This document shows, piece by piece, positions 1 through 15,279 of a stretch of 42,100 nt of DNA. The stretch comes from Acidobacteriota bacterium (GTDB lineage: Bacteria > Acidobacteriota > Terriglobia > Acidiferrales > UBA7541). The notes beneath the pieces are model-generated. The model searched no databases. It was not told where the DNA came from and worked only from the letters and a program-made list of their open reading frames with translations. A program made the translations under genes and the position numbers. Numbering within the stretch: position 1 is the first letter of the stretch; every line of letters begins with the position of its first letter. Location of the stretch: positions 3,976 through 46,075 of the forward strand of contig QHYU01000178.1 in NCBI GenBank assembly GCA_003224235.1, read 5' to 3'.

Positions 1-166
1 GGCTGCGAGTCAATCCGGTGATCTTCTCGGCGATGGCGTAAACATCCGGCAGATGTGGCTCGCCTGCGAGAATCCAATCCCCCAACGCCCACCGCACGTC
101 AGCGTCGCGCTTGGCGAGACGTTTGCCGCAGCGAGTCCAGGCGTGTCGGTTCCAGGTTCGGGACAC
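1..166 (-). CDS. Partial unknown gene, runs off the left edge
   Basis: An open minus-strand frame runs off the window edge, so the C-terminus is missing. It reads AWTRCGKRLAKRD, then ADVRWALGDWILAGE, then a stretch containing YAIAEKITGL. The WxxxGxxLxxxxxxxxWxxGDWxxxGE pattern resembles a protein type I recall from mobile elements and actinobacterial or acidobacterial genomes, with no known activity. A GTG at 166 is a possible start, but the frame stays open further upstream without an ATG, so the true start is unsure. Other minus-strand frames across 100-240 are also open, one of them with a helix-turn-helix-like look (containing SPDTVRQYWQRVP), so a frameshift here is possible. It follows the excisionase-like gene on the same strand with a gap of about 97 bp, which suggests it belongs to the same integrated element. 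Confidence 0.35.
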   Translation of the reverse strand, partial: MSRTWNRHAWTRCGKRLAKRDADVRWALGDWILAGEPHLPDVYAIAEKITGLTRS

Positions 167-263
167 GCTGCCAATATTGGCGCACCGTGTCCGGCGAGAC
201 GAAGTAGCAAGAAGTTCTATTGTGACCGAAGATGTAGTTACTTTTTGGCGTGCGCCAGCCCTC

Positions 264-494
264 TTAGGCCGCCTCTTTCTTCTGCCGCTCGACGAAGGCA
301 TCTAAGTCGCTGCGGTCATACAATAGACGGCGGCTCCCACCTATCTTGACCGGGGTTAGCTGCTTCGTCCAAGTCAACTGGCGGACGCACCAAACGGCGA
401 CGGACAAGTAACGCGCCGCTTCGCGGACATCCAACAATCTGGGTTGAACTTGCGGGATTGAAACAGGTGTACTGCTACTGGATTTTTGAGCCAC
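264..494 (-). CDS. Excisionase-like helix-turn-helix protein
   Basis: A 76-residue protein with a MerR/excisionase-type winged helix-turn-helix (HTH_17 style). The core runs from about residue 20: LLDVREAARYLSV (first helices), a recognition-helix region ending near WTKQL, then PVKIGGSRRLLYDRSDLDAFVE, the usual wing and closing helix. Proteins of this kind bind DNA and often act as recombination directionality factors or small regulators. The start is GTG at 494, chosen because an AGGAG lies 7 bases upstream. It is divergent from the tyrosine integrase at 846, the usual arrangement for an int/xis pair, so control of excision is a reasonable inference; a plain transcription regulator is the alternative. 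Confidence 0.75.
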   Translation of the reverse strand: MAQKSSSSTPVSIPQVQPRLLDVREAARYLSVAVWCVRQLTWTKQLTPVKIGGSRRLLYDRSDLDAFVERQKKEAA

Positions 495-845
495 GGGAAC
501 ACTCCTACTTACAGGAGATTCCCGCTGCCGCCCACCGAAGGGTAGGGCTTTACGTGATTCGGGCGATCACTAGGGTACCAGCCCCTGCCCACGCCGGAGA
601 GGGCATCCCGCTCATCGGGATGTCCGGTGGCCAACCAACTTCGTCTGCAAATATATTACCAAATATCGCCTAAACTTGTCAAGCGCGAATCGCCAAAGTT
701 AGGCGCGGCGCGCCAAGCGGTTCCGTTTGGTGGTACTTAAGTACTAACTCGGCGGTACTTCCTGTCCATCGACAGCCCCAAGCACTTTCTGGCACCTTCA
801 CTTCGTTAGATCGTGAATACAATTTCTAATGCAAGGGGCGCAACA
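495..845. promoter_or_regulatory. Divergent control region between HTH gene and integrase
   Basis: No gene is seen in this 351-bp gap between two divergent genes. It is more AT-rich than its surroundings around 645-680 and holds two symmetric sequences: an imperfect inverted repeat with arms at 667-678 and 694-705 (CGCCTAAACTTG against CAAAGTTAGGCG), and a perfect 12-bp palindrome GTACTTAAGTAC at 733-744, followed by a half copy (GGTACTT) near 754. These are candidate operators or recombinase/Xis binding sites. Protein binding is inferred only. Confidence 0.35.
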
Positions 846-1940
846 ATGAGCACCGAAACGAAGCGAGCACGCGGAACGGGCAGCGTGGTGAAACTACCGG
901 GCTCTCGCTTCTGGTACATCCTGTTCTATGTCGATGGCAAGCAGCGGCGGGAATCGAGCAAGACGGAGAGTCGCGCCGCAGCGGAATCGTTGCTACGCAA
1001 GCGGTTGGGCGAAGCTGAAGACGGCCGCGCGCAACTCGACAAGAAACTTCGCTACGAAGATGTCCGCGCTTCGCTACTCCTAGAGTACAGCAACAAGCAG
1101 AACAAATCCCTACGTCACCAAAAGAACGGCGATGTCAGCATCGGCGGGCTGAAGCATCTCGACAGCTTCTTTACGGGGATGCTGGTCAGCCGGATTGATA
1201 CCGACACGATTCAGGAGTTCGTACAGCAACGACTTGCCGAGGGCGCAGAGCGGCCCACCGTCAACCGCGCCCTTGCATTGTTGCGCCGCATGTTCTACCT
1301 CGCGAAAGAGCACGGGAAGATTCAGAACATACCGTACTTCCCGATGCAGAAAGAGAACGCGCCGCGCCAGGGCTTCCTTGACCATGACGAGTTTCGCGCG
1401 TTGCTCGACGCTCTGCCGATTCGCTTTCATCCGCTAGTGATATTCCTGTACTTTTGCGGCGTTCGAGTTGGTGAAGCAACGCAGATCACTTGGAACCAAG
1501 TCGATTTGAACCGGCACCAGATTCGACTCGAAGCGGAGCAAGCAAAGAATGCCGAGGCGCGCATCCTGCCGTTACCTGCGGAGCTGGTAGATCACTTGCG
1601 AGCGATTCCGATTGAGTCCCGCTCGGGGCTTGTATTCTTTGCAAAGAACTTCCGGAACCACTGGAATGCCGCTGTGCAAGCGGCCTTCCTGAAGACGGGC
1701 AATGAGAAGTTCGACGGGCTTCTGATTCACGACTTGCGCCGCAGTGCCGTGCGGAATTTGATTGCAGCCGGCGTCCCCGAGAAGATTGCAATGCGCATCT
1801 CCGGCCACAAGACGCGCCACGTGTTTGACCGTTACATGATCGTGAGCACTGGCGACCTGCACAACGCGATGGGGCGCGTCCAAGCGGCCGCCCAAGTAAT
1901 CACCGTGAATGCTCCCCGGCTGCTTAAATCAAAAGTCTAA
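846..1940 (+). CDS. Tyrosine recombinase / phage-type integrase
   Basis: A 364-residue site-specific recombinase that would cut and rejoin DNA through a tyrosine-DNA intermediate. The N-terminus carries an AP2-like arm-binding segment (about residues 10-60, GSRFWYILFYVDGKQRRES). A SAM-like core-binding domain follows (to about 170), then the catalytic domain. Catalytic residues are visible: Arg in FCGVRVGEATQI, HDLRR (His and second Arg), SGHKTRHVF, and the nucleophile in FDRYMIV near the C-terminus. The start at 846 is preferred over a GTG at 813 because an AGGGG motif lies just upstream. Length and domain order are normal for the family. It is followed by a strong terminator and is divergent from the excisionase-like gene. 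No tRNA gene or matching attachment core is visible, so the integration site is unknown. Confidence 0.93.
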   Translation: MSTETKRARGTGSVVKLPGSRFWYILFYVDGKQRRESSKTESRAAAESLLRKRLGEAEDGRAQLDKKLRYEDVRASLLLEYSNKQNKSLRHQKNGDVSIGGLKHLDSFFTGMLVSRIDTDTIQEFVQQRLAEGAERPTVNRALALLRRMFYLAKEHGKIQNIPYFPMQKENAPRQGFLDHDEFRALLDALPIRFHPLVIFLYFCGVRVGEATQITWNQVDLNRHQIRLEAEQAKNAEARILPLPAELVDHLRAIPIESRSGLVFFAKNFRNHWNAAVQAAFLKTGNEKFDGLLIHDLRRSAVRNLIAAGVPEKIAMRISGHKTRHVFDRYMIVSTGDLHNAMGRVQAAAQVITVNAPRLLKSKV

Positions 1941-1992
1941 TTTTCGATGCAAGTCTGCTCCAGTACGATACAAATTCCGATGCAAACCGAAG

Positions 1993-2021
1993 AGGCGGGG
2001 ACTTCAAATCCCCGCCTTTTT
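1993..2021 (+). terminator. Rho-independent terminator after the integrase
   Basis: A perfect 9-bp stem (AGGCGGGGA pairing with TCCCCGCCT), a 7-base loop and a run of five T residues, 52 bases after the integrase stop codon. Confidence 0.85.
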
Positions 2022-2075
2022 GCTGGCTTTTTGACGGTTTCGAGCCTGAATTTGGATGGACTTTAAGTCCAATGA

Positions 2076-2145
2076 TTTTGGAACTGCGCATTCCAAAGGG
2101 CTTGCGGACGCATTTTTGGTAACTGCGTATTCCAAAGGAGTTGCG
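2076..2145. repeat. Two imperfect 31-bp direct repeats
   Basis: Copies at 2076-2106 and 2114-2145 share TTTTGG, then AACTGCG(C/T)ATTCCAAAGG, then a TTGCG end. They differ by one inserted base and about three substitutions. Each contains TTGG...CCAA half sites. Lying just beyond the integrase terminator, they could be arm-type integrase sites or element-end repeats. This role is inference. Confidence 0.45.
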
Positions 2146-2154
2146 CGGGCGGAC

Positions 2155-2250
2155 CTAAGACAGAGCGTGGCGGGCGTAGACGAAGCAGAGAGCTTCACCA
2201 TCTGAGAGTCGGTCGTTTCTGCAAAGCTCTTGGCAGGCTTTGCACTTCAT
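2155..2250 (-). CDS. Possible 31-residue cysteine-rich peptide
   Basis: A short minus-strand frame begins MKCKACQELC and has a further cysteine near the middle (EALCFVYARH). A GAGG sits four bases before the ATG. The CxxC start suggests half of a zinc-binding knuckle. The frame is also open upstream to 2448, but that part looks non-coding. No family is recognised, and the call rests only on start context and cysteine spacing. Confidence 0.2.
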   Translation of the reverse strand: MKCKACQELCRNDRLSDGEALCFVYARHALS

Positions 2251-2449
2251 GTTGCCTCGGCGGTAATAGCATGTCAACGGGAAACTGATTCCAGGTCTGC
2301 GGTGAGACAAAGAAAATGCGCAAAACACGCAATGACGCCCGGAAACAACTGGTAAGCTCCTAAGGGTCTTTGGAAATGGTAGAAAGCCCGCCGAAAGCAA
2401 ATCGGCAAGCTTGGCATCGGTCAGCTGGCAACTTTTGTGCTGGCGCAAT

Positions 2450-2548
2450 GCTGCCCTGAAGGGCAGCGCTACATTGTTTTTGTAGCGCCGGGCTTCAGCC
2501 CGGCACGGCCCCCGTCTGCCTGCCGCCCTAAAGGCGAGGTGCTGGAGG
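2450..2548. repeat. REP-like element, copy 1
   Basis: Three adjoining palindromes: CTGCCCTGAAGGGCAG (2451-2466), GCGCTACA...TGTAGCGC (2466-2488) and GCCGGGCTTCAGCCCGGC (2487-2504). A conserved tail (ACGGCCCCCGTCTGCCTGCC) follows, then a variable stretch ending at the stop codon of the zinc-ribbon gene. Related copies lie at 10101, 11319 and 12657. Inverted-repeat clusters of this type are usually dispersed by RAYT transposases, and one RAYT lies at 13367, although the repeats nearest that gene belong to a different family. Confidence 0.8.
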
Positions 2549-2695
2549 CTAGGCCTTATGGCAGTTGGGGCACAGCTTAGACTCGTAGTTCTCGGGGGTG
2601 ACGCGAAACATGTTGTTGCAGGTGACGCAGACCCGGAGGATAACCTTCTTCGGTGCGGCTGCCGGTTTGGTTTCAGTTTTCTGTTCCTGGGTCAT
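2549..2695 (-). CDS. 48-residue zinc-ribbon protein, copy 1
   Basis: The protein starts MTQEQKTETKPAAAPKK, a polar Lys/Pro/Ala-rich tail, followed by a compact zinc-ribbon. Two CxxC knuckles, VCVTCNNMF (Cys23, Cys26) and LCPNCHKA (Cys42, Cys45), are 15 residues apart, so one structural zinc is expected. There is no enzyme motif and no signal peptide; nucleic-acid or protein binding is the common role of such ribbons but is not shown. A second copy at 12745 differs at only two residues (Ala14 to Lys, Leu20 to His), while four other codon differences are silent. This supports translation of both copies. The REP element abuts the stop codon in each copy. No strong ribosome-binding site is seen. 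Confidence 0.7.
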   Translation of the reverse strand: MTQEQKTETKPAAAPKKVILRVCVTCNNMFRVTPENYESKLCPNCHKA

Positions 2696-2939
2696 AATTT
2701 CATCGCCGAAGACTACCCTAGCTTAACGTCCGTACTTTGCGTTGTTTGGCTTGGCCCTAAAGCCCCACGATAGGGTCGGGACAAGACTTTGCACGAGCCA
2801 TTGATGATTCAGGCGGAGCGAGTTGAGATTCGAGACAGATTAAACAGTTGATTCAAGTTCCGAAAAGCTTGAAACATGATTCTGCGCGGTCGTCAAGGAA
2901 TTCAACAGCGACGTGTGGTCGCAGAGAGCAGAAAGGAAA

Positions 2940-3403
2940 TCATTTTAACCGGGAATCCTGCTCAGTGACTGCTACCACGAACCAGTCCGCGTTTGCAAAA
3001 TGAGCTGGGTTTTTCTTGATGGCGTCCAGGCTCGTCTGGATCACGTCTACCGTGATCTCAGCTGCCTTGACAGTATTGGGATCGAAGTAGAGCCCCAGTG
3101 GGTTCCTGGGTTCGACCACTACGACCCCTCCAATCAAGCCCGCATTGGGATGTTGTTGGTGAAGCGCCAAGAAGTCTTGCCAGTTGCTTGCGGAGTTGAA
3201 ACCTATCTAGATTTGGTCAAGGATTCCGTCACTGTCTCGGCCCCGGTCGGAAATAAGAACGTTCCCAGCGGTTCCAAACCACGGATCGGAAGGAGTAGGG
3301 ACCGGGGAGCACTTGGAGGAAGAGAGCCGTCTGCACAACTCAGGAGAATTGTGAGTGGGAGAGCAAACAGCAAAGCCGTAAGAATCTTAGCTGCTCCAGA
3401 CAT
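2940..3403 (-). pseudogene. Broken gene for a secreted protein
   Basis: A strong start (ATG at 3403 with AGGAGGAG upstream) opens a signal peptide or lipoprotein leader, KILTALLFALPLTILLSC. The initial frame then continues into an unconvincing sequence and stops near 3203. A second frame, overlapping from about 3345 downward, reads protein-like sequence: DPWFGTAGNVLISDRGRD, SDGILDQI, an in-frame TAG, then IGFNSASNWQDFLALHQQ and a conserved-looking tail to 2940. A frameshift plus one nonsense codon would join them into a protein of about 154 residues. It sits 62 bp after the Ig-lipoprotein gene on the same strand and may be the operon's last, decayed member. Assembly error is the alternative. 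No family is recognised. Confidence 0.5.
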
Positions 3404-3465
3404 CTTACTCCTCCTGGGCTTGTACCACTTTGCGGCCACAGGGGCGGGGTATGCATACCCAAAAA

Positions 3466-5913
3466 CTAAGGACAATTCACTACGGTCAGGCTGACCGTCT
3501 GGCTCTGGCCGGAAGGAGGCCGGGCGGAATCCGAGGCGCCAACTATGCCTGTGAAGGTGCCGAGAACTCCGGCGACACCACTGAAAGTGCCTGTGTTTTG
3601 ATCCAGATTGATGGGAATCCAGGAGCTGGAGAAGAAGTTGAAATTAATCGGACGTATTCCGCCTGAGGTTTGAATTGTGAAGGAATAGGGTTGGTTGAGA
3701 CAGGCGTTGGGCCATGTCGCGGGACTCGTGATAACGACAGGTTCCGCGATCTGAAGCGTGTATTGAGCACGCGCGGTCTGGGGTGGGTTAGCAGAGTCGG
3801 TGGCCTTGATGGTGAACGTATAAGAGCCATCGGTGGTCGCAACACCACTAAGCAGGCCGGACGAATTCAATGACCAGCCGGGCGGCAGGGACCCGCCGTC
3901 GATAGACCAAGTGACACTGCCCGTGCCGCCATGAGCTGTGAATTGCTGTTGGTAGCTGACGCCGCGAGTCGCGCCAAGACCCAGGGTAGAGGGCGAAATA
4001 GCGAGCGGTTCGATGACGCCCCTGATATTCAAGTAGTACTGCATATCCGGGCGCGCGTCGCCGCGCCAGTCAAAGACATGGACGTAGAAGGTCGCCTGCG
4101 TATTTGAAGGGCCGGGAACTTTCAAATCGAGTGCAGAGTCGAGCGTGGCCAAGTTGAGATCGTCGTTGAGACACGCAGATGTGTACGAAGGCTGAGTACA
4201 AGTCTGGAGACGCTGCCCGCTTGCATCCAAGATTTCCAGTACACTGTCGAGCGTATCTGCGCCCCACGAGCGCTGAGCGAAAGTTTCGACGTGAACCAGA
4301 CTGCCGCCATTAGCGACAAGTCTGTAAAAGTCCGTGTCGGGATTCGGCGTGGCGGCGTCGATGGGATCGATATAAGGACTTATCGAAAGAGGTATGGGGA
4401 TCTGGAGATTGGCACTGTTGCCGAGGGGTGTGGCGGTGGCGACGGAATCATTGCGACCCAGACCGGGCCGAATCTGGATGAAATCGTTCGCGTTGGCAGT
4501 TTGTGGCGGGTTGCCGGAATCAGTGCCCTTGGCGACAAAGTTGAAGGTGCCGACCTGCGTGGGAGTGCCGTCGATGTTGCCTGTGACCGGATCGAGAGCG
4601 AGCCCCGGGGGCAACTGGCCAGAAGAGATGCTCCAAGAATAGGGTGGTGTTCCCCCGGACGCGGGGATCTGCGAGTGATAGCGCACATTCACGGGCGCGG
4701 GAGAGAGCGGCCCGCCCAGGATGCTGAGCGGCTGAGGAGTGACTTTCAGGGTGACGGAAGTCGTGACCACATAGGGGGGAGAGCCGGAATCAGTGACTTG
4801 GAGGACAAAGGCGTACGAGCCGAGTTGGGTCGGTGTGCCGAAAACTAAGCCCTGGGATTGGAGGAACAGGCCGGGAGGTAGAGCACCGGAAGCCAGGCTC
4901 CATGTATAGGGATAATTGCCTCCAGTGGCGATGAGGGATTGGGTGTATGGCAAACTAATGTAGGCGGGAGGAAAGGTACCGATGATTTGCAACTGCCGGG
5001 CAATATTGAGGATGCCCTGACCGGAATCGCTTTGAACGGTGGAACTGGAGTCGCTCACAGAGACGGAATAGACAAAACCGCCAAAGTCGCTGGGTGTGCC
5101 GGTGACCTGCCCGGAAGACGGAGCGAGAGAAAGGCCTGCGGGGAAATTGCCGGAAATGGACCAGTGATATGGAGGCGTGCCGTTGACCGCTGCGAAGGAG
5201 TCGGAGTAGACCTGATTCTGGCCACCGTTTTTCAAGGAGGACTTCGTAATCGCGAGATGGGAATCGACGCCGATGGTGACGACCATCGTAGCCGTCTGAG
5301 GAAGCGTGTAATCCTGAGCTCGCACGGTGAAGGTGTAGGTGCCCAGTTGGGTAGGAGTTCCGGAGATGGATGCGACGTTGAACTGGCTCACGCTTAAGGA
5401 CAAGCCGGGAGGCAACTGTCCGGCAGAAATGGTCCAACTGGCGATGGCCGAGGAACCCTGGCCGGTGATGGAGAGCGAGTAGGGCGCATTAAGATGTGCG
5501 GGCGGAGGATTGACGGGATTGATGATGAGCTTGGCGAAGACAAGGAAGTTGAACTGTTTGGAAGTGCTGGCCTTGGCATCGGCGGCTTGAATGGTGACGG
5601 TAACGCCCGAACCCGCGGTGGGTGTTCCGGAGACGACGCCTGTAGAAGAATCCAAAGATAGTCCTGCCGGCAACTGGCCGGAAGTGATGGTCCAGGTGAC
5701 GGCGCTGGAGGCGCCCTGGACTTGTAACGTGAGACTAAAGGGAACCGTCTGAACGCACTGGACGGTCGAATTCGTTGTGATGGTGAGGACTTCCGGAGCT
5801 GGAGGCGGAGGGGGGAGTACCGGCGTGGAACCCGAGCCACCGCCACAGCCAGCTGTGAGCGCGAGAAGCGCAAACGCGACGAGACTGAACAGAGATGGCG
5901 ATTTGCCATTCAC
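3466..5913 (-). CDS. Large lipoprotein with putative Ig-type repeats
   Basis: An 815-residue exported protein. The N-terminus is a lipoprotein signal with lipobox LTAGC (Cys at about residue 23), followed by a Gly/Ser/Pro linker. About five He_PIG-type repeats follow, each with the signature LPxGLxLxxxxGxxxGTPT. A segment at about 490-630 (containing DTDFYRLVANGGS and FYVHVFDWRGD) resembles a PPC/pre-peptidase C-terminal beta-domain. Two further, more diverged Ig-like repeats end the protein. Such proteins are surface or outer-membrane anchored; adhesion or polymer binding is inferred only. The GTG start overlaps the preceding protease stop codon by four bases (GTGA), so translational coupling is likely. 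The pairing suggests the two proteins act at the same surface site. Confidence 0.85.
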   Translation of the reverse strand: MNGKSPSLFSLVAFALLALTAGCGGGSGSTPVLPPPPPAPEVLTITTNSTVQCVQTVPFSLTLQVQGASSAVTWTITSGQLPAGLSLDSSTGVVSGTPTAGSGVTVTIQAADAKASTSKQFNFLVFAKLIINPVNPPPAHLNAPYSLSITGQGSSAIASWTISAGQLPPGLSLSVSQFNVASISGTPTQLGTYTFTVRAQDYTLPQTATMVVTIGVDSHLAITKSSLKNGGQNQVYSDSFAAVNGTPPYHWSISGNFPAGLSLAPSSGQVTGTPSDFGGFVYSVSVSDSSSTVQSDSGQGILNIARQLQIIGTFPPAYISLPYTQSLIATGGNYPYTWSLASGALPPGLFLQSQGLVFGTPTQLGSYAFVLQVTDSGSPPYVVTTSVTLKVTPQPLSILGGPLSPAPVNVRYHSQIPASGGTPPYSWSISSGQLPPGLALDPVTGNIDGTPTQVGTFNFVAKGTDSGNPPQTANANDFIQIRPGLGRNDSVATATPLGNSANLQIPIPLSISPYIDPIDAATPNPDTDFYRLVANGGSLVHVETFAQRSWGADTLDSVLEILDASGQRLQTCTQPSYTSACLNDDLNLATLDSALDLKVPGPSNTQATFYVHVFDWRGDARPDMQYYLNIRGVIEPLAISPSTLGLGATRGVSYQQQFTAHGGTGSVTWSIDGGSLPPGWSLNSSGLLSGVATTDGSYTFTIKATDSANPPQTARAQYTLQIAEPVVITSPATWPNACLNQPYSFTIQTSGGIRPINFNFFSSSWIPINLDQNTGTFSGVAGVLGTFTGIVGASDSARPPSGQSQTVSLTVVNCP

Positions 5914-7262
5914 GACGCTTTTCCCAGGATCCAGGGTTCGAGCGAAGCGGGAAACACAAACGGGGGCTTCGGCTGCTCGAGCTGCACCTCACCGTCTTCG
6001 AACTGATCAAACCGAGGAGGCGTCTGATTGAGGATGATGTTGATGTTGCTGAGCTTTTGGCCCGCCTGCACTCTAAGCGGATCCTTTTTTGAGGGATCGT
6101 CGAAAGCAGACTCATATTGATGCCAGAACTCGTAGGCACCGTAGGTGATGGCCGGCGGGTCGAGCGGGCCCACGCTGGAGCCATGAGTAAAGGCGGCATC
6201 AAGGTTTTCGACCTGAACGGTGTAGTTCCCCGGGGTCACAGGGATTTCGTAGTAGCCGATCAACGCGGGGTTGCGACTCCCGTACGGGCTGCCTGCAGTG
6301 TTGTTGCCAGTAATCGGCTGACCCGGATTGCCGGTGAACGTAAATGTGGAGGGATCATCGACGCGGCGAGCGATGACATTCACACCTTGAACGTGCGTGA
6401 TCCCATCGGAAAAAAAGATAAACCCGCTGATAATTCCATAATTGGATGAAAAGCCTGAATTTGGATACAACTTGGAAATCCAGGCGATATCGTCAGGAGC
6501 GAGAATGGGAAGCCCAGCTGATTTTCTGGACTGGCAGAAGGCAACCGGGAACATGAGTGGGAGGCCTGCCAATTTGTCGACATTGCAGTTGCCCACCATA
6601 CCGCTCTGGAAGAGGTCGAGGTTGATCTGGGAATGATCGAGACCGGAGAAATGGCCCAGCTCATGGGTAATGGCCTCGTCGAACTGGTCGGGCGTGAGCT
6701 CGTAATTCGAGGTGCTGGGATCGTTGATGCCGTCCTGAAACTCGCCATTAAGAAAAACCAGGGCCGAGACGATGTGGCCCGCCTGCGGGTCCAATTTGCA
6801 GGTTCCAGCAAAACCGATGACCAACGGATTGAGACCCAACGCCCGGAGGAGAGAGCCGTCGGCATCGAAGATGACGGGATTTTGAGAACCGCTGTTGCAG
6901 GTGCCCAGGACGGCGTTGAAATCCTGGATGGTTTTCACGTCACCGTCTGGAGGGAGGCCTGGAGCAGTAATCGGACCGGCGTAGGAGTAGGTGATCGAAG
7001 CGGTGGAAACTGACTGCCAGTTCTGAAAGAGGCTCTGGACGCGGGCTACTCCCTGGGAGTTGCTGATGACGACGTGACCGCTGGGATCAACACTGAGAGG
7101 GCCGCCGTCGACCGTGAAGCGAATGGGCGTGGAAACATCCCAGATCAACGGCTGGCCGGGATTCTTCGAGGCAGGGCCTGTGACGCGCCGAGGACCACCA
7201 GCATCGGCAAATCCGACGAAGAGGATAGAAGACAAAAGGAGCGCAGCGACGCGTCGTTTCAC
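5910..7262 (-). CDS. Secreted matrixin-like zinc metalloprotease
   Basis: A 450-residue protein with a signal peptide (MKRRVAALLLSSILFVGFADA). The zinc motif HELGHFSGLDHSQ matches the metzincin pattern HExxHxxGxxH, with Glu as catalytic base, at about residue 202. The acidic DDIAWISKLYP segment after it is typical of the matrixin fold, where a C-terminal helix of the form DIxxIxxLY closes the domain; LPLMFPV may supply the Met-turn. From about 285 a carboxypeptidase-regulatory-like beta domain appears (GIISGFIFFSDG, YYEIPVTPGNYTVQVENLD). The protein would cleave extracellular or periplasmic proteins; the substrate is unknown. The start is GTG at 7262, overlapping the previous gene's TGA (GTGA), and the gene similarly overlaps the Ig-lipoprotein gene downstream. 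Confidence 0.85.
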   Translation of the reverse strand: MKRRVAALLLSSILFVGFADAGGPRRVTGPASKNPGQPLIWDVSTPIRFTVDGGPLSVDPSGHVVISNSQGVARVQSLFQNWQSVSTASITYSYAGPITAPGLPPDGDVKTIQDFNAVLGTCNSGSQNPVIFDADGSLLRALGLNPLVIGFAGTCKLDPQAGHIVSALVFLNGEFQDGINDPSTSNYELTPDQFDEAITHELGHFSGLDHSQINLDLFQSGMVGNCNVDKLAGLPLMFPVAFCQSRKSAGLPILAPDDIAWISKLYPNSGFSSNYGIISGFIFFSDGITHVQGVNVIARRVDDPSTFTFTGNPGQPITGNNTAGSPYGSRNPALIGYYEIPVTPGNYTVQVENLDAAFTHGSSVGPLDPPAITYGAYEFWHQYESAFDDPSKKDPLRVQAGQKLSNINIILNQTPPRFDQFEDGEVQLEQPKPPFVFPASLEPWILGKAS

Positions 7263-7876
7263 TTAGGTGCTCCCGCGAGTGCCTGAATAGCGTCTTCCAA
7301 TGCGTCGAGAGGCACCCGACCGCCGGACTTTGACAACATCTCTCGAACTTGCTTGGAAAGTGCCACACCGCGAGAGCTAGCCTTGTTGGTGACTTGGTCG
7401 AACAGACCGAGGTTGCCACGGCCGTTGAGGGCGTAGCGATTTCCTTTTGCATCTTGAAGGATGCGAAAGCGCCCCTGCTCGAGGCCGACAGGACTTGTGA
7501 GGCCGTACGGCGAGACGGGGTTCAGAAAGAGCAAGAGTTCACCGGCTCTCTTGTATTCGGCGAAGACCGGCACATCGCGAGCATCCCAGAGGAACTGGCG
7601 AAAAGTGAGAGTAGAAGCTGCTTCGCCCTTAAGCACCTTGGTCACGGCGAGCGTGACGACGACGGTCTGCAGATTGGAGAATTGGGGATGGGGCTCAACC
7701 CTGGCAGACATGACGCGGCCACGGACGACGGTTTTTGCGCTCTGGACCAGTTGGTCCAAATCGGCTGGCGCCGTGTACGCCCCACTCTGCGCGAAGACAG
7801 AGGCAGCGAAAAACAGTACTAAGACGAGCGAACACGCTGGGTCTGCGAATCGGACCGGGAAGGGGCGGTTTGTCAT
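7259..7876 (-). CDS. Secreted protein of unknown function, first gene of protease operon
   Basis: A 205-residue protein with a signal peptide ending near VFAQSG. The mature part (AYTAPADLDQLVQSAKTVVRGRV, VVVTLAVTKVLKG, ELLLFLNPVSPYGL, GRFRILQDAKGNRYALN) looks like a small beta-rich domain that I do not assign to a named family. The C-terminal 60 residues are helical and charged. The ATG at 7876 is preferred, with a GTG at 7885 as the alternative; neither has a strong ribosome-binding site. It heads a three-gene operon with the metalloprotease and Ig-lipoprotein, preceded by a near-consensus promoter at 7971-7999. A helper, inhibitor or pro-domain role for the protease is possible but only suggested by context. 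Confidence 0.75.
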   Translation of the reverse strand: MTNRPFPVRFADPACSLVLVLFFAASVFAQSGAYTAPADLDQLVQSAKTVVRGRVMSARVEPHPQFSNLQTVVVTLAVTKVLKGEAASTLTFRQFLWDARDVPVFAEYKRAGELLLFLNPVSPYGLTSPVGLEQGRFRILQDAKGNRYALNGRGNLGLFDQVTNKASSRGVALSKQVREMLSKSGGRVPLDALEDAIQALAGAPK

Positions 7877-7970
7877 TGAAAACACCGACCGAGTCGGCGC
7901 GGCATGCCGACTATGCCCAAACCTCTCGAAACAGACATTCGTATCTCTGCCGACGAGCGCTTAGGCCGCG

Positions 7971-7999
7971 ATTCTAGAATATAGGTATTGCCTTGTCAA
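7971..7999 (-). promoter_or_regulatory. Near-consensus sigma70 promoter of the protease operon
   Basis: Read on the minus strand: TTGACA (7994-7999), a 17-base spacer and TAGAAT (7971-7976). This is six of six and five of six matches at ideal spacing. The expected transcription start is near 7964, about 90 bases before the first gene. The left end of the insertion sequence lies only 14 bp upstream of the -35 box. Confidence 0.75.
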
Positions 8000-8012
8000 T
8001 ATACCGTATCGA

Positions 8013-9261
8013 GCCATCTAAAATGTAACCCTAGGGGGTGTTATCGCGCCATTTAAGATGTAACCCAACTCAGAAGGCCTTTGAGGAGGGTTATGGTGGG
8101 CCATCAAACGAAATGGGAGTACTTGCGAGCCATCTATGAGCGTTACCGCCAAGCGGGGCACAGGGTAAAGCACGTGATCCTGAACGAATCTTGTCTCAAC
8201 ACCGGCTACCACCGGAAATACGCGATTCGGCTTCTGAACGGTCCGCCCCCAGGAAAGCAGCGCGTTGGGCGGGCGCGGCGACGTGCGCTGCGCTATGGCC
8301 AGGAAACACTGTCCATCCTGACGGCCGTTTGGGAAGCGGCCGGTTAGACGGATAGCTGGGAGGTGACCTCGCCAGGGTTCACCGAAGTGGACCTGGTCTC
8401 CCACTCTGGCAATTCGGGCGCGGGAGAATTCGCTCATACCTTGAATGTGACCGACATCCATACGACCTGGACGGAATCCCGAGCCGTGCTGGGGCGCGGC
8501 CAGGCGACCATAGAAGGGGCCTTGCAGGAGGTGGAGAAGGCCCTGCCGTTCCGTCTTCTCGGAGTGGATTCGGACAATGGTTCGGAATTCATCAACTGGC
8601 ATCTGCAGGCTTGGTGCCAGCGGAAAGGGATCCAACTCACCCGCGGACGCCCCTACAAGAAAGACGACAATGCGCACGTGGAGCAGAAGAACTGGACGCA
8701 CGTGCGCAAACTGTTGGGTTGGGACCGCTACGACTCGCCCGCAGCCGTCGAGGCCCTCAACGATCTCTACCGCCACGAACTGCGCCTGTGGCTGAATCTT
8801 TTTCTCCCCTCGGTGAAACTGGTGAAGAAGGTGCGAGTGGGATCGAAACTGCGCCGGGTCTATGACACGCCCCAGACCCCTCTGCAGCGCGTGGCCTCCT
8901 CGCCGCAGGCTGATGCCGCCCGCGTGGCCGAGTTGCAAAGCTTGCGGGAGTCTCTGAATCCATTTGCGCTGGCGAAAGCCATCGATCAAAAGCTGGAGCA
9001 CATCTACGAGCTGGTCAACCGGCGGCTGAGCCCCAAGGTGCCCCAGGGACTCCCGGCGACGGAGCGCACAAAATCGAGCCAGCCCAACGGCGGTGGAAAA
9101 GACGCTGCGTGGAAAAGTCGGAAAACAGACTTTTCCACTCCGCTTGGGAATCCCGCAAAAGACGCGGGATTCCCACTTTCCCACCGCCGCAACAACAACA
9201 GCCTTAAGGTTACATTTCAAATGGCGCGACGACCCACCCCACGGTTACATTCTTAAATGGC
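8013..9261. mobile_element. Internally deleted insertion sequence with doubled terminal repeats
   Basis: Each end carries two copies of an 18-19-bp unit close to GCCATTTAAGATGTAACC. The left copies are at 8013-8030 and 8048-8065, and the inverted right copies at 9208-9225 and 9243-9261. Between the two units at each end lies a similar GGGGTG-rich spacer. The body holds one broken transposase gene. Flanks show weak extra inverted similarity (TCGATACG against TTGACGCG), so the true tips may lie a few bases further out. No target-site duplication could be fixed by eye. The element looks non-autonomous in its present state. Confidence 0.8.
8093..9256 (+). pseudogene. DDE-type transposase, internal deletion and in-frame stop
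   Basis: The N-terminal part (KWEYLRAIYERYRQAGHRVK, YHRKYAIRLLNG) ends at EAAG with a TAG at 8345-8347. The same frame then resumes as TDSWEVTSPGFTEVDLVSH and continues through the integrase-type catalytic core: DLVSHSG (first Asp), DSDNGSEFINWHLQ (second Asp), YKKDDNAHVEQKN (Glu). From memory of full-length relatives, roughly 100 residues that normally separate the two parts are missing, so the stop sits at a deletion junction. The ATG at 8093 follows an AGGAGG. The last 40 or so residues extend into the terminal repeats and are probably not original. No in-window copy could supply the full enzyme. Confidence 0.8.
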
Positions 9262-9887
9262 TTGACGCGTATACCTCCCGCATCGAGCCGCTGTGCGCCG
9301 GCACATTATTCTCCGTATAGGCAGGATTCTGGAGCGCTCTTGACAGTCGCAAATGTCATCAGAAAAGATAAGAACCTGAGGAAATCTGCACAAACCAAGC
9401 ATCTCTTTCCTCCCACGAAGCTGCTTTCGTTAAAATTGCGAGGTGTGGATGGTTTGGGCGCCGTGCAGGTGTGGCCCCTCGGATACGGTCATCCGTTGCC
9501 CTTGAACAGGCGGTGGAGGATAAGTCTCAGTCTGAATGTTTAGTAATTTGCGAGCCCAGCTTCATCACGAGCACACAACTGCGCGTCGCCTCTGACCACT
9601 TCTTTACGTAACCTCTCGTTGGTTGAATTACGAAGCTGCTATAGTAGGAATCAAAAGACCTAGCAATCAGGTCATTGCTGTAATTTTGAGTCGGGGAAAG
9701 ACCTGGGGACTAGCTGCTTCATTCTCGGCTAGGATAGAATCTAATGTGCTTTCGGCTTGCCTGACTGACTTAATTCACCGCTTGGTCTTAAAGGATTTCT
9801 GAGGACATCACAATCGGGCCTTTTAGAACATGCGCCACGTCCTTTCCGCACGCCCTTGCGCCTGCATCGCAGCGCGGTAGGCGTTGT
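9262..9887. other. Gap without a convincing gene; possible orphan promoter
   Basis: No frame here looks coding on either strand. The stretch 9580-9790 is more AT-rich than its neighbours. An extended -10 element TGCTATAGT lies at 9637-9645, with TTGGTT at 9619-9624 (15-base spacer) on the plus strand, followed by a short hairpin GACCT...AGGTC near 9658-9674. This could start a small RNA, but no terminator is seen before the REP hairpins. Confidence 0.3.
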
Positions 9888-10175
9888 GGCACGGCTGGAA
9901 GCCGTGCCCAGACGAGCCTCGGAGCATTTATGCGATGAAGGTTGGCTTCTTTTGTCGGAGCTGATGGCTCCGACCCCCGAAACATCCTCCAATGCTCTTT
10001 GGGACAGCCTAGGTCGTTTGCCGGGCTGAAAAGGGCACCTCTACAGGTGCTGGAGGCTAGAGGTGGCAAGAGGGTATCGATCACATCGATCAGGCTGCGT
10101 GCTGCCCTGAAGGGCAGCGCCACATTGTTTTTGTAGCGCCGGGCTTTAGCCCGGCACGGCCCCCGTCTGCCTGCC
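9888..10175. repeat. Cluster of three REP-like hairpin families
   Basis: Three different hairpins are packed together. GGCACGGCT-GGA-AGCCGTGCC (9888-9908) is a perfect 9-bp stem. GTCGGAG-CTGATGG-CTCCGAC (9954-9974) is a perfect 7-bp stem. Copy 2 of the CTGCCC/TGTAGCGC/GCCGGGC element spans 10101-10175. Between them, 10021-10060 (AAGGGCACCTCTACAGG followed by TGCTGGAGGCTAG) matches the variable tail seen before the zinc-ribbon stop codon in the other copies, so this region holds pieces of more than one REP unit. No zinc-ribbon coding part remains. Confidence 0.7.
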
Positions 10176-10306
10176 AGCAGCCCCGACTGATTTCGTCCGA
10201 TTACTTTTCGGGCAAGACAGTCCGGCGTACCATAGCTCCATCCTCACGAGACGGTTATCCTGCAGGGTCATCTTGATAGGCATCCCCTTCGCAACGGGAG
10301 AACATC

Positions 10307-11269
10307 GTGAAAGGCAAGTGGATTTTGCGTCTAGCCGACGTGAACAGAGAGCTTTTCCTCATTTTCGCGATCATCGCCTTGGCCGGGCTGGTCAATTTCC
10401 TCGTAGAAGGCCAGCGGTTGGTGTTGACCTTCTACAATCTTCCTACTCTCTTGGCCGCGTACTACTTCGGCCGTCGCCGCGCCGTGGAGGCGGCGGTGGG
10501 CTCGGTTCTCTTCGTCGTCTGGATGAACATGATGAATCCCACGGCCCTGGGCAGCGGCTTGCAACTGGAGAACCGCGGCCTGTTGACCTGGTCCGACCTC
10601 GCCGTCTGGGCCGGCTTCCTGTTGATTTCGGCTTACGCTACCGGCACCCTCTACGAACTCGGTGAGCGCAGGCTGCGCGACTTGCGGGAGACTTACTACG
10701 GCGTGCTGCAAATCCTGAATCAGTTCATTGGCAACGACAAGTTCACGCAAAATCATTCTTACCGGGTATCCGTCTACGCTACGCAAATTGCCGACGAGAT
10801 GCGCTTGACGAAAGACCAGATCGAAGACGTGCGAGCCGCGGCGCTGCTGCACGATATCGGCAAACTGGAAACGAGCCGGGCTATCTTGTATAAGGCTGCG
10901 CGCCTCACCGACGATGAGATGACGCACATCAAGACGCACGTGGAAAAAGGGGTCGAGATGCTCAGCTCCGTCGGCGGCTCACTCCGGCGGGTGCTGCCCA
11001 TCATCCTGGCGCATCACGATAAGTTCGACGGCTCCGGCTATCATCCCACAAAGGGTGAGCAGATCCCCATCGAGGCGCGGATTATCACCGTGGCCGACGT
11101 GTTTGATGCAATGGTCAGCGACCGCCCTTACCGCAAGGGTGTGTCCCCCTTTGAGGCGCGAGACGCCATCGTGAAAGGCAAAGGTACCGATTTCGATCCC
11201 CGCGTCGTCACGGCGTTCGAGTCGGCCTTTCAAAAACAGAGACTAGAAGTCCCTGAAGTTCTGGTATGA
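10307..11269 (+). CDS. Membrane-anchored HD-GYP domain protein
   Basis: A 320-residue protein. The first 120 residues form about four membrane helices (LFLIFAIIALAGLVNFLV, LPTLLAAYYFG, VGSVLFVVWMNMM, LAVWAGFLLISAYATG). A short linker helix leads to an HD-GYP domain from about residue 140: NHSYRVSVYA, LLHDIGKLE (HD pair), HHDKFDGSGYHPTKG and ADVFDAMVSDRPYRKG. HD-GYP proteins usually hydrolyse cyclic-di-GMP, and the metal-binding His/Asp residues seem present. The signature GYP reads GYH here, with Pro one residue later, so activity may be altered. The start is GTG at 10307 with GGGAG upstream. It stands alone between REP elements. The N-terminal helices may sense a membrane signal; no ligand can be inferred. 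Confidence 0.85.
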   Translation: MKGKWILRLADVNRELFLIFAIIALAGLVNFLVEGQRLVLTFYNLPTLLAAYYFGRRRAVEAAVGSVLFVVWMNMMNPTALGSGLQLENRGLLTWSDLAVWAGFLLISAYATGTLYELGERRLRDLRETYYGVLQILNQFIGNDKFTQNHSYRVSVYATQIADEMRLTKDQIEDVRAAALLHDIGKLETSRAILYKAARLTDDEMTHIKTHVEKGVEMLSSVGGSLRRVLPIILAHHDKFDGSGYHPTKGEQIPIEARIITVADVFDAMVSDRPYRKGVSPFEARDAIVKGKGTDFDPRVVTAFESAFQKQRLEVPEVLV

Positions 11270-11318
11270 GCCTGGCCACATCTTCCTTTGATCGAAGCCC
11301 TGAGGCCGGCAGGCGCGT

Positions 11319-11455
11319 GCTGCCCTGAAGGGCAGCGCTACATTGTTTTTGTAGCGCCGGGCTTCAGCCCGGCACGGCCCTCGTCTGCGTGCCGCCCGAA
11401 AAGGGCGGTGCTACAGGTCCTGGAGGCTAGGCCTTATGGCAGTTGGGGCACAGCT
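11319..11455. repeat. REP-like element, copy 3, with zinc-ribbon tail
   Basis: This copy holds all three palindromes and then a variable part (GAAAAGGGCGGTGCTACAGG). It ends with the last codons of the zinc-ribbon gene in antisense (remnant entered separately). Homology to the other copies stops at about 11455, inside the zinc-ribbon sequence. Confidence 0.75.
11427..11455 (-). pseudogene. 3' remnant of the zinc-ribbon gene
   Basis: On the minus strand the sequence reads ELCPNCHKA and a stop, identical to the end of the two intact zinc-ribbon genes. Upstream of these nine codons the match is lost, replaced by sequence of the DUF2207-type gene. It is too short to be functional. It marks the breakpoint where a REP/zinc-ribbon unit joined unrelated DNA. 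Confidence 0.7.
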
Positions 11456-12635
11456 CAGCATCGGAAACGGAAGTGAGATCTCTCCACTGCGCAAGCTCAT
11501 GGCGGCGGCAGTTGTTTTTCTGGCCGCCGATTTTTTTCTCCTCATTAATTTCATGGCTTCTGAGGTCAATCGCGTTTCGGCGCGTGGCAGGGAGGGCAGG
11601 GGGTTTTATTTTATCCCGATCGCTTTGGCGGCATACTACGCTTGCACATGGGTCCTGGTCGCACGCCGACGGCCGGAACGTGAACCGATCGTTGTTCAAT
11701 ACCAGCCGCCCGAGGGCGTCTCACCTGCTGAGGCCCGTTACATTTACACGTTGAGTTGCGACGGGCGCACGTACGCCGCCATTGTGGCTGACCTGGCTGC
11801 GCGCGGTCTGCTGACGATTGAGCCGACCGGGGACGGCATCTACGCGCGCAGCGCCATCGAACTTCCCGATGCGGGACGGAATGTGATCTCCGCCGTGCCC
11901 ACTGATCTTCCGGAAGAAGAGCGTTGCGTCTTTTACGATCTGTTTCAGGCTGGGGCGATGGCCTGCCTGCATCCCCCGCGGCAGAGTTTGCTCAACTATG
12001 TTTGTGCGGCTCTGCAGAGGCGCACTTCGACCCTGTACTACAACTTCCGCCCTCACCTTCTGACTGCCGGACTCGTTGTGATGTCGATTATCACGGTATG
12101 GATGGCCGGCGCTGAGGGGCTACTGACAACAATGCAGGGTCAGGCCGATCTTAAGTTGGCCGCCTTTCTAGGAAGCTGTGTGTTCGCTGCGGGCGCGGCC
12201 AGCTTCTTCTTGTGGCAGCACAATCGCCATGCAGTCATGCTGGCGTGGCGCGGCATATACCGCTACCGCACGCTTCCGCTTCTGCTGGGTGGGCTCTTCT
12301 TCACTCCTGTGCTCTTCTGGCTGAGCATGCGCGTCATCGCTCCTGTTTTTGCCGAGGTTACCGCTCTCATGCTGCTGGTGAACACCTTTGCTCCGCCCTT
12401 CCTCATGGGCTATAGCGAGCGCGGAGCGCAGTTGATGCGCCACATTCTCGGATTTCGCCAATTTCTCGAATCCACGGAACAAGACCGGCTTGATCGCCTC
12501 GATCCCGCCAGGAGGGATGCCAAATCCGAGCTCTCACTGCTGCCCTATGCCGTCGCACTCGATATCCGCGAAAGATGGGGTGACCGTCTGGGCGCGGAAA
12601 CAATGGTTGAAGTCGCGCTCGACCGCATGCTCTGA
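11436..12635 (+). CDS. DUF2207-type membrane protein, probably missing its N-terminal half
   Basis: A 399-residue protein. After a membrane helix (LMAAAVVFLAADFFLLINFM) and a second one (FYFIPIALAAYYACTWVLVA) comes the DUF2207 hallmark QYQPPEGVSPAEARY, followed by a winged-helix-like segment (YAAIVADLAARGLLTIE). Four more helices follow, then the closing motif HILGFRQFLESTEQDRLDR and LLPYAVALDIRERWG. Full DUF2207 proteins have an extracellular beta domain of a few hundred residues in front; it is absent here. The ATG at 11436 and a GGAGG nine bases before it lie inside the REP/zinc-ribbon remnant in antisense, so the present start may have been supplied by that repeat. An internal ATG at 11499 is the alternative. 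The role of the family is unknown. Confidence 0.7.
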   Translation: MAVGAQLSIGNGSEISPLRKLMAAAVVFLAADFFLLINFMASEVNRVSARGREGRGFYFIPIALAAYYACTWVLVARRRPEREPIVVQYQPPEGVSPAEARYIYTLSCDGRTYAAIVADLAARGLLTIEPTGDGIYARSAIELPDAGRNVISAVPTDLPEEERCVFYDLFQAGAMACLHPPRQSLLNYVCAALQRRTSTLYYNFRPHLLTAGLVVMSIITVWMAGAEGLLTTMQGQADLKLAAFLGSCVFAAGAASFFLWQHNRHAVMLAWRGIYRYRTLPLLLGGLFFTPVLFWLSMRVIAPVFAEVTALMLLVNTFAPPFLMGYSERGAQLMRHILGFRQFLESTEQDRLDRLDPARRDAKSELSLLPYAVALDIRERWGDRLGAETMVEVALDRML

Positions 12636-12656
12636 GCGATAGAATCCCGAGCCCCG

Positions 12657-12744
12657 CCAGCGGCTACATTGTTTTTGTAGCGCCAGGCTTCAGCCCGGCA
12701 CGGCCCCCGTCTGCCTGCCGCCCTAGAGGGCGAGGTGCGGGAGG
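12657..12744. repeat. REP-like element, copy 4
   Basis: This copy lacks the first palindrome (CTGCCCTGAAGGGCAG) but keeps GGCTACATTG...TGTAGCG, the CAGGCTTCAGCCCGG hairpin with one changed base, the CGGCCCCCGTCTGCC tail, and the variable stretch ending at the second zinc-ribbon stop codon. Confidence 0.75.
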
Positions 12745-12891
12745 CTAGGCCTTATGGCAGTTGGGGCACAGCTTAGACTCGTAGTTCTCGGGGGTAACGC
12801 GAAACATGTTGTTGCAGGTGACGCAGACGCGGTGGATAACCTTCTTCGGCTTGGCTGCCGGTTTGGTTTCGGTTTTCTGTTCCTGAGTCAT
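12745..12891 (-). CDS. 48-residue zinc-ribbon protein, copy 2
   Basis: This protein is nearly identical to the one at 2549-2695: same length, same CxxC pairs (VCVTC and LCPNC, 15 residues apart), and two residue changes, Lys14 and His20. The upstream 20 bases differ completely from copy 1, so the duplicated unit begins close to the start codon and extends through the REP element at the 3' end. TAAAAT lies 13 to 8 bases before the ATG (12899-12904) and could act as a -10 box for an almost leaderless message, but this is weak. Its neighbours are a REP element and the RAYT repeat cluster, so the copy probably arrived by the same process that spreads the repeats. Confidence 0.7.
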   Translation of the reverse strand: MTQEQKTETKPAAKPKKVIHRVCVTCNNMFRVTPENYESKLCPNCHKA

Positions 12892-13000
12892 AATCGAATT
12901 TTAGCACACCGGCGCGAGCGTGGTGGCGCGGGTATTGGTACCGGCGCGGTTTCCGCGTGGTGCGGATGGCGATGGGGGCAAAAACAAGGCGCACAGGAAG

Positions 13001-13302
13001 GGCTTAGTGGCGAGACAGAGAATGGCCGTGGTCGAGCGCTGACGCCGGCAGAGTCAGTAGCACAGCCACTCTTGGCTGTGCATGGATATTCGATTCAAAA
13101 TAAAGCACACAGGCAAGAGTGCCTGTGCTACCTGTGCCGCCGCCATCGAGCGCAATCCCGTAGTGGCGGGCTTAGTGGCGAGACCGGAAGAATGGCCGTG
13201 GTCGAGCGCTGACGCCGGCAGAGTCAGTAGCACAGCCACTCTTGGCTGTGCATGGATTTTCGATTCAAAATAAAGCACACAGGCAAGAGTGCCTGTGCTA
13301 CC
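13001..13302. repeat. Two tandem RAYT-linked repeat units
   Basis: Two units of about 133 bp begin at 13001 and 13169. Each contains a piece of the RAYT 3' coding end (reads VVAGLVARPEEWPWSSA in copy 2), then GTAGCACAGCCACTCTTGG with its inverted partner GGCTGTGC, a spacer (ATTCGATTCAAAATAAAG) and a second hairpin, GCACACAGGCAAGAGTGCC to TGTGCTAC. The first is at 13057-13131 and the second at 13227-13301. A short flank (TAGCACA...CGCGAGCG...GGTGGCG) occurs on both sides, at about 12901 and 13311. The array sits directly before the RAYT gene. Confidence 0.8.
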
Positions 13303-13366
13303 TGAAATTTAGCACATGGCCGCGAGCGCGGTGGCGGGGAGGAATGCCTGTGCTAGCTAAGCTAAG

Positions 13367-14083
13367 ATGACCTACTACGAACGAAATCTCCCGCACTGGC
13401 ACCCGGCAGGGAGGATTATCTTTCTAACGTGGCGTTTCTATGGCTCGCTCCCGGCCAGCTTTCTGCGAAGTCTGGGGGAAGACAAGGCGCAGCCCGCCGG
13501 CAAGTTCTTCCGAGTCGTCGATTGTCAACTGGATCAGGCCCGGACTGGACCCTTGTGGCTGAAGGACCCGCGAATCGCCGGCTATGTGGTGCGAGCGCTC
13601 CAGAGGGGGGAGGTCGAACTCGAGCAGTATGCCTTGTTGTCCTTTGTTGTGATGGCCAATCACGTTCACGTCCTGCTGGAGCCCAAGATTGACGTCGCCC
13701 GGATCACAAAAGGGATCAAGGGCGTGACCGCCAAAGAGGGGAACCAGATCTTGGGACGCACGGGGAGACGATTTTGGCAGGATGAATCGTACGACCACTG
13801 GGTGCGCAGCCCTAGCGAATGCGACAGAATTCGGTCGTACATCGAGCGCAATCCCGTAGTGGCGGGCTTAGTGGCGAGACCGGAAGAATGGCCGATTCAA
13901 AATAAAGCGCACAGGCAGGAGTGCCTGTGCTACTGGAGGCGGCGGATGGTGGGCGCGGCAAAGGCGATGACTGCGGTCAGCGCCAATGCGAAGCCGCTGG
14001 AGAACGCCATGGCCACGGGAGTACTCCAACGCTCTGCCAACGCGCCGACCAGCAGGCTGCCCAGCGGAGTGAAGCCCAGGTAA
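13367..14083 (+). CDS. REP-associated tyrosine transposase (RAYT) with rewritten C-terminus
   Basis: A single-strand DNA nuclease of the HUH/Y1 type (TnpA_REP). The N-terminal HWHPAGRIIFLTWRFYGSLP is typical. The HUH motif is in VVMANHVHVLLEPK (about residue 100), followed by KGVTAKEGNQILGR. RRFWQDESYDHWVRSPSE and YIERNPVVAGLVARPEEWP follow, with the probable catalytic Tyr in SYIERNP. Relatives continue PEEWPWSSA and stop soon after. Here the frame jumps after EEWP into IQNKAHRQECLCYW, which is its own repeat sequence, and then reads on in antisense over the MFS gene end to 14083. A deletion between the coding tail and the downstream REP explains this. The core motifs are intact, so activity cannot be excluded. 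Confidence 0.82.
   Translation: MTYYERNLPHWHPAGRIIFLTWRFYGSLPASFLRSLGEDKAQPAGKFFRVVDCQLDQARTGPLWLKDPRIAGYVVRALQRGEVELEQYALLSFVVMANHVHVLLEPKIDVARITKGIKGVTAKEGNQILGRTGRRFWQDESYDHWVRSPSECDRIRSYIERNPVVAGLVARPEEWPIQNKAHRQECLCYWRRRMVGAAKAMTAVSANAKPLENAMATGVLQRSANAPTSRLPSGVKPR
13865..13933. repeat. Shortened third RAYT-linked repeat unit
   Basis: This unit matches those at 13001 and 13169 but lacks the segment between GAATGGCC and GATTCAAAATAAAG, so the first hairpin is gone. The remaining hairpin GCACAGGCAGGAGTGCCTG ends in TGTGCTAC. The CTA of that end is, on the other strand, the TAG stop codon of the MFS gene. Confidence 0.75.
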
Positions 14084-15279
14084 GCCATCAGATGCATACT
14101 CAGCACGCGCCCGCGGATCTGGTCGGGCACCAGCGTCTGGATCAGGCTGAGCGGGGTGGCCACCGCGCCCACCATCGCGCCGCCCACTACAGCGAGGAGA
14201 AACGCAGAGAGCAGGAGCTGGCGCGAGAGGCAGAACAGCAGAATGGCTGCGAAAAAAGTGAGCGCGGCGCCAAGCAGCACCGGGCCACGCCGGTGATGGG
14301 ACTTCAGCATGGCCAGGTTAATCCCGCCGATGATCGCTCCAACTCCTGAGGCCGCGACCAGGTAGCCCAGGCCACGAGCTCCGACGAGGAGGACATCTTT
14401 CGCAAAGGCGGGCATCATCACCAGGTACGGCATGCCGAACATGCTGATCATGCCCACCAAAAGCACCAGCAGCAAAATGGTGGGGTTCTCCCGAACGTAG
14501 CGAAAGCCCTCGGCCATCTCGGCTCCAATGGAGTTGGCCTCGCGCTCGGCGCGCGCCGGAAACCTCACTCGCGCGAGGACGAACAGCAGCGGCACGTAGC
14601 TCAGCGCGTTCAAGTAGAAGCAAGCGGCGATGCCGGCTCCGGCGATGGTGAAGCCAGCCAGCGTGGGCCCCAGCACGCGCGAGGCATTGAACTGGATCGA
14701 ATTCAGTGCGATGGCGTTCAGGAGGTCTTCCCGCGGCGCCAGGTCGCGGATGGCCGATTGATAGGTTGGGGCGTTGAGCGCGGTGGTCGTGCCGGCCAGC
14801 ACGGCGATCAGCACAATCTGCTGCACGGTAATGCGTTGCAGATGCGTCAGCACAGCCAGCAACACCGCCAGAAGCATCATGGTGGTCTGGGTGACCATCA
14901 GCAGCCGGCGCCGCGAGGCGCGGTCGGCGATCACGCCGCCCAGGAGCGAGAACACCAGCGCGGGCACCTGTTGCGCGAATCCCACCAGGCCCAACCAAAG
15001 GGGCGAGTTGGTGAGTTGCAGCACCAGCCATCCCTGGGCCACGTTCTGCATCCACGAGCCGATATTCGAGATGAAATTACCCGTCCAGAACAGCCTGAAC
15101 TCCGGGTGCCGCAGCGCGCGGAACCATCCGTGCCCCGGCGCGAGCAGTAAGTCCAGCGGCATGCGCAGGGCGGACGATTCGGGTGCTTCCAGCGAAACCG
15201 GCGTGGCGTGTGGCTCGGACGACGTAGTTGCCTGGGGAGAGGGTGAGGCCGGAGGATCCGCTGGAGTTGAGTCTGACAT
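13930..15279 (-). CDS. MFS exporter (enterobactin-exporter-like family)
   Basis: A 449-residue protein with a long polar N-terminal tail rich in Ser/Pro/Ala (about 50 residues), then twelve expected membrane helices. The first motif is FRLFWTGNFISNIGSWMQ, typical of the MFS_3/EntS group, followed by GFAQQVPALVFSLLGGVIADRASRRRLL with the MFS loop motif G-x-x-x-D-R. The second half contains GVGAIIGGINLAML and PDQIRGRVLSMHLM. It would export a small molecule with proton coupling; the substrate is unknown. The stop codon falls inside a RAYT-linked repeat, so the last codons may have been changed by repeat insertion. No strong ribosome-binding site precedes the ATG. Confidence 0.85.
   Translation of the reverse strand: MSDSTPADPPASPSPQATTSSEPHATPVSLEAPESSALRMPLDLLLAPGHGWFRALRHPEFRLFWTGNFISNIGSWMQNVAQGWLVLQLTNSPLWLGLVGFAQQVPALVFSLLGGVIADRASRRRLLMVTQTTMMLLAVLLAVLTHLQRITVQQIVLIAVLAGTTTALNAPTYQSAIRDLAPREDLLNAIALNSIQFNASRVLGPTLAGFTIAGAGIAACFYLNALSYVPLLFVLARVRFPARAEREANSIGAEMAEGFRYVRENPTILLLVLLVGMISMFGMPYLVMMPAFAKDVLLVGARGLGYLVAASGVGAIIGGINLAMLKSHHRRGPVLLGAALTFFAAILLFCLSRQLLLSAFLLAVVGGAMVGAVATPLSLIQTLVPDQIRGRVLSMHLMAYLGFTPLGSLLVGALAERWSTPVAMAFSSGFALALTAVIAFAAPTIRRLQ

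Follow-up and report, generated by a model that had tools for sequence, protein, structure and literature searches.

The two near-identical zinc-ribbon genes in this acidobacterial DNA, here called copies A and B, are an ordinary side effect of the REP elements near their stop codons, not a travelling gene. We consider it probable that they, together with the partial units C, D and D', reflect local growth of a REP cluster in which the REP was copied along with variable lengths of adjacent DNA, a phenomenon of known kind. The window (the whole stretch of 42,100 nucleotides that we analysed) is part of contig C222 of a 4.57-Mb acidobacterial assembly, which is fragmented into 237 contigs and probably metagenome-derived. 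The original prediction saw here a dispersed unit that carries a small gene or gene tail. The REP is indeed copied with the gene or its tail, but dispersal does not hold, as all units share one orientation and lie within 10.5 kb of one contig. Whole-genome searches rule out a mobile unit with a passenger gene: they place no copy at an unrelated position, and the gene-side ends are not constant. The units comprise the following features:

2450-2541, unstranded: REP trimer of copy A, with palindromes detected and a DNA fold z = -3.25.
2549-2695, minus strand: ribbon gene copy A, assigned as derived, without a promoter box; 96% protein identity to copy B, with the change H20L.
10020-10060, minus strand: fragment D', made of the stop-side sequence CTAGCCTCCAGCACCTGTAG and a degenerate palindrome.
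10100-10175, unstranded: unit D, limited to REP palindromes 1 and 2; 97.4% identity to 2449-2524 over 76 bp.
11319-11416, unstranded: REP trimer of unit C, whose third palindrome is the best preserved; fold z = -3.59.
11427-11455, minus strand: what remains of the ribbon gene in unit C, namely the stop, eight codons and two further bases; no difference from A or B there.
12656-12733, unstranded: REP of copy B, comprising palindromes 2 and 3, from its alignment with A, C and D; the outermost palindrome 1 is eroded.
12745-12891, minus strand: ribbon gene copy B, assigned as ancestral on the same preceding MFS and response-regulator genes as in relatives, the upstream box and a retained His20.

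The two ribbon ORFs and the third REP unit lie where they had been predicted; units D and D' are additions. The REP, described as abutting the stop codon, is near it but not quite abutting: in unit C, the GTAG of the nearest palindrome begins 12 nt past the stop. The same three-palindrome REP had been assigned to both genes, and A has the trimer but B lacks most of the outermost palindrome. Where unit C was said to keep the last nine codons, it has eight whole codons and the stop, with only two bases of the ninth. The three palindromes of A and C alternate in orientation. The alignment of A with B spans 237 bp (2464-2698 and 12658-12894; 94.5% identity), and a genome search with A recovers B at E 2e-62, which excludes chance; the homology of the two stops 3 nt upstream of the ATG. 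Unit C aligns with A over 151 bp (88.7%), and D' has 16 contiguous bases in common with A and 20 with C at one mismatch. On the REP side, A, C and D end at nearly the same place. A search for a common breakpoint inside the ribbon had been proposed as a check, but the gene-side ends differ: that of A is 3 nt ahead of the ATG, that of C eight codons from the stop, and that of D inside the REP.

A single segmental duplication could have made A and B, with C and D as ordinary independent REP insertions. The 237-bp block common to A and B and the single-copy state of the gene in relatives agree with this, but C contains ribbon coding sequence and D' contains stop-side sequence, so that the gene took part in at least two copying events, and we regard this reading as very unlikely. 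The original prediction had itself named a single segmental duplication as the counter-reading, for a ribbon gene that is single-copy elsewhere. Most of that picture stands, since wherever the search of relatives found the gene it is single-copy, with no REP pair at its stop in the loci read, but several copying events take the place of one segmental duplication. No larger duplicated segment accompanies the units in the window, which, with their single orientation in 10.5 kb, favours local growth of the REP cluster.

The ribbon protein has the pattern CxxC...CPxC in common with the small zinc-ribbon proteins of Pfam Zn_ribbon_19 and DUF7564, which it matches weakly (E 0.004 and 0.001) and below the curated cut-offs of both (17.8 bits against 30.8 for Zn_ribbon_19). 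Both copies are 48-codon ORFs on the minus strand. As predicted, they differ by four silent changes (codons 2, 7, 21 and 32) and two replacements (codons 14 and 20), for a total of 8 nt, with codon 14 differing at all three bases. The coding constraint that had been read from these changes is not supported by comparison with the REP. Coding differences amount to 8 of 147 bases and REP-side differences to 3 of 85 aligned bases plus two single-base gaps, rates that do not differ (Fisher p = 0.75), and synonymous versus replacement changes per site give p = 0.06. One of the replacements, H20L, falls on A: residue 20 is Leu there and His in all other rows of a 14-row alignment. The coding differences thus do not demonstrate constraint on the pair.

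We scored the presence of the ribbon gene by protein search in 100 relatives and in the genome itself. Exactly one ribbon protein is found in 38 of the 100 relatives, and two are found in none. In its own genome, DNA and protein searches recover only genes A and B, plus the tail in C. A pattern-based scan of species genomes gave 39 ribbon loci, nearly all in assemblies titled as acidobacterial metagenomes, with two loci in the SRVP_26 genome; in this analysis the family is seen almost only in acidobacterial genomes. Among those relative loci whose downstream sequence was read, a subset of the matching genomes, none has a REP pair at the ribbon stop codon, and a GTAG hairpin scan of the relatives' stop sides gave isolated single candidates only. 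A single-copy gene with no REP pair at its stop in the loci read favours growth of a REP cluster around the gene in this genome.

In the nearest relatives, a response regulator and an MFS transporter precede the ribbon gene, and a YjbQ-family gene or an ABC ATPase follows it. On the upstream side of copy B we identified:

12898-12903, minus strand: promoter-like hexamer TAAAAT within GTGTGCTAAAAT, 6 nt before the ATG of B.
13930-15279, minus strand: MFS transporter preceding the ribbon gene, 66-77% identical to the pre-ribbon MFS of L143, L144, L145, L161 and L167.
15379-15750: response regulator, on the 5' side of B.

The upstream box of the relatives is of the type GTGCTAGAAT (GCTAnAAT-like) and usually lies 6 nt (6-9) ahead of the start codon. 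The script pattern for it matched in 25 of 37 readable relative loci, most of the others having a visible variant such as TGTTAGAAT; of the 40-bp stretches in the window, 0.5% contain the pattern by chance. The box is absent from copy A. Judged by neighbouring genes and a box like those of the relatives, and by its retained His20, B is the ancestral copy; A, with Leu20 and no box, is the derived one, for which expression from its own promoter is improbable. That ancestral neighbour genes and box occur at B only also favours the REP-cluster explanation. At the end of contig C158 lie the best match to the ABC ATPase (87% identity) and its YjbQ-family neighbour, and the junction after B is therefore broken.

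The conserved promoter-like box near the start of the family's genes (12898-12903; loci L143-L181) suggests leaderless transcripts. In L145, which is from the same genus, the pre-ribbon MFS gene (1823-2377) is missing its middle (residues 156-359 when aligned with the window protein).

Reverse transcription of a leaderless ribbon mRNA might also have generated A, C and D as variously 5'-truncated copies, with the REP hairpin as their common 3' end. Copy A, which has no promoter box, begins no more than 3 nt from where the transcript is predicted to start. One reverse transcriptase (PF00078) is encoded in the genome; it looks like group II intron types, an assignment made by inspection only. 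However, the copies are local and uniformly oriented rather than scattered at random positions and orientations. The reading was also conceived after the breakpoint had been seen, and the coincidence of breakpoint and start codon therefore merits little weight. We find it highly improbable.

Details of the REPs bear on the order of events. Copies A and B both lack ~9 bp at the GTAG of palindrome 3, a derived loss, and C still has these bases, which suggests that C branched off before A; the outermost palindrome is retained in A and was later lost from B. Copying happened more than once, with the lineage of B as its likely source, the order of the copies being drawn from few characters. Under local REP-cluster growth, a GTAG-tagged REP trimer would have settled ~12 bp past the stop of a vertically inherited zinc-ribbon gene (copy B) and nucleated local direct duplications that took varying lengths of neighbouring DNA. 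Unit C and the fragments D and D' would have arisen first and copy A later. Subsequent insertions and rearrangements would then have separated the copies, and the old downstream neighbours (YjbQ family, ABC ATPase) would have come to lie on a different contig. As the means of copying, slippage or template switching where the REP forms single-strand hairpins is probable, and a REP-associated tyrosine transposase (RAYT) may have assisted.

The ribbon copies are now 1-9 kb apart, with HD-domain, DUF2207, Ig-like and IS genes between them. Because they do not form a tight array, the splitting of an originally tight cluster must be assumed, which counts against this explanation. An empty site between the HD-domain and DUF2207 genes was not recoverable, as the relatives yielded no close ortholog of the DUF2207 gene. 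The region also includes an IS-like element (8009-9265). Its rve-domain ORF falls slightly short of the Pfam cut-off, and its ends (8009-8065 and 9208-9265) are inverted at 81%.

Gene-tail copying is also seen at a RAYT gene within the same window:

13000-13134, plus strand: RAYT gene tail and REP pair, repeat 1; 97% identity to 13168-13304.
13144-13304, plus strand: RAYT gene tail and REP pair, repeat 2; 13144-13198 is identical to RAYT 13840-13894.
13367-14083, plus strand: RAYT gene (PF01797, E 1e-7).

The RAYT also matches NCBIfam REP_Tyr_transpos at E 3e-16, which is under the cut-off of that model. On its 5' side, two 137-bp units of tail plus REP pair stand head to tail, and the RAYT itself is without that tail; its reading frame continues into a REP and then into the MFS gene, and the native C-terminus has apparently been lost. 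Contig C40 has a 148-bp tandem repeat of REP plus flank (94%). Ordered REPIN clusters have been described by Bertels and Rainey as tandem repeats with flanking sequences (PMC3116915), and a survey of GTAG repeats reports large clusters whose reiteration includes flanking DNA of varying extent, as well as REPs near the 3' ends of ORFs (PMC3733652). These precedents, the RAYT-tail repeats and the C40 tandem favour cluster growth as the origin of the ribbon copies.

The main rival to that explanation is one-ended transposition driven by a RAYT, which would cut at a constant outer REP edge, copy variable neighbouring DNA and take gene tails to new sites. In vitro, TnpA-REP cuts on either the 5' or the 3' side of the REP structure, and at discrete sites farther away as well (PMC8266576). 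The nearly constant REP-side end and variable gene-side end of A, C and D also speak for this route, and the genome has three Y1 transposase (Y1_Tnp) genes. However, the window RAYT is flanked by REPs of another type (GTAGCACAGSCACTCTTG..., not GTAGCGCCGGGC), the ribbon-bearing copies are local and in a single orientation, and the REPs on other contigs have no ribbon tail. We consider one-ended transposition unlikely.

The REP has a GTAG tag followed by an imperfect palindrome, as in GTAGCGCTGCCCTTCAGGGCAGC and GTAGCGCCGGGCTTCAGCCCGGC. The core palindrome has 20 matches in the genome at <=3 mismatches, and a control pattern has 0. No ribbon sequence accompanies the REPs on other contigs, among them a related REP pair on C40 and a trimer (C234:295-390) that matches unit C over 96 bp at 88.5% and so delimits the REP unit. 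Genome G029, of another genus, has the two outer (stop-distal) palindromes, again without ribbon sequence. A dispersed repeat of ~300 bp lies at 2059-2352 of the window; its copies, 72-82% identical, are near REPs on other contigs (L024, L030 and L079), and it has no Rfam match. At 40200-40731, a 268-bp direct repeat stands head to tail with 96% identity.

REPs close to some contig ends (C62:47 and C234:310), in a fragmented and probably metagenome-derived assembly of 237 contigs, raise the question of assembly error at the repeats. Numerous differences separate copies A, B and C, and the flanks of each are unique, which would not easily come from a collapsed or chimeric repeat, and we judge such an error to be extremely unlikely.

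Genes for a tyrosine integrase, a small HTH protein and a Toprim-domain protein in the window (264-1940) and in L085 (1477-3504) suggest an integrative island at the left edge of the window. A tRNA attachment site and a known structured RNA are ruled out, the window containing no tRNA and no Rfam match to a structured RNA, and a search for plasmid relatives of window positions 1-12000 gave no match. It could be proposed that an island used the 3' end of the ribbon gene as its attachment site, with A and B as the flanking repeats. The integrase (813-1940), HTH (264-491) and Toprim genes, on the same contig just beyond A, speak for this. What is duplicated, however, is a whole gene and REP, not a short core; the island does not account for C and D', and the downstream side of A is without the ancestral neighbours, which sit on contig C158. 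It is very unlikely that an island made the pair.

Compared with known systems, local REP-cluster growth here resembles GTAG-REP families and BIMEs (PMC3733652, PMC2817692) in the GTAG tag with a GC-rich palindrome, the alternating orientation, the trimers, the site just past a stop codon and the reiteration of clusters with flanks of variable length. It may differ in copy number, with ~20 core palindromes counted at <=3 mismatches against the >100 described as usual, and it differs in a reiterated flank that includes a complete small gene. The ordered REPIN clusters of Pseudomonas fluorescens SBW25 (PMC3116915) are likewise tandem REP doublets with flanks, some of them beside RAYT genes, and are tightly spaced, unlike the ribbon copies, which are kilobases apart; the RAYT-tail repeats of the window are the closer match to that pattern.

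The window thus offers a case of REP-cluster growth in an acidobacterial genome that probably copied the tails of host genes and, in one instance, an entire small gene; next to the RAYT of this window, too, a gene tail has been copied. It also advises caution, in that a near-identical gene pair with a common REP need not mean a mobile gene.
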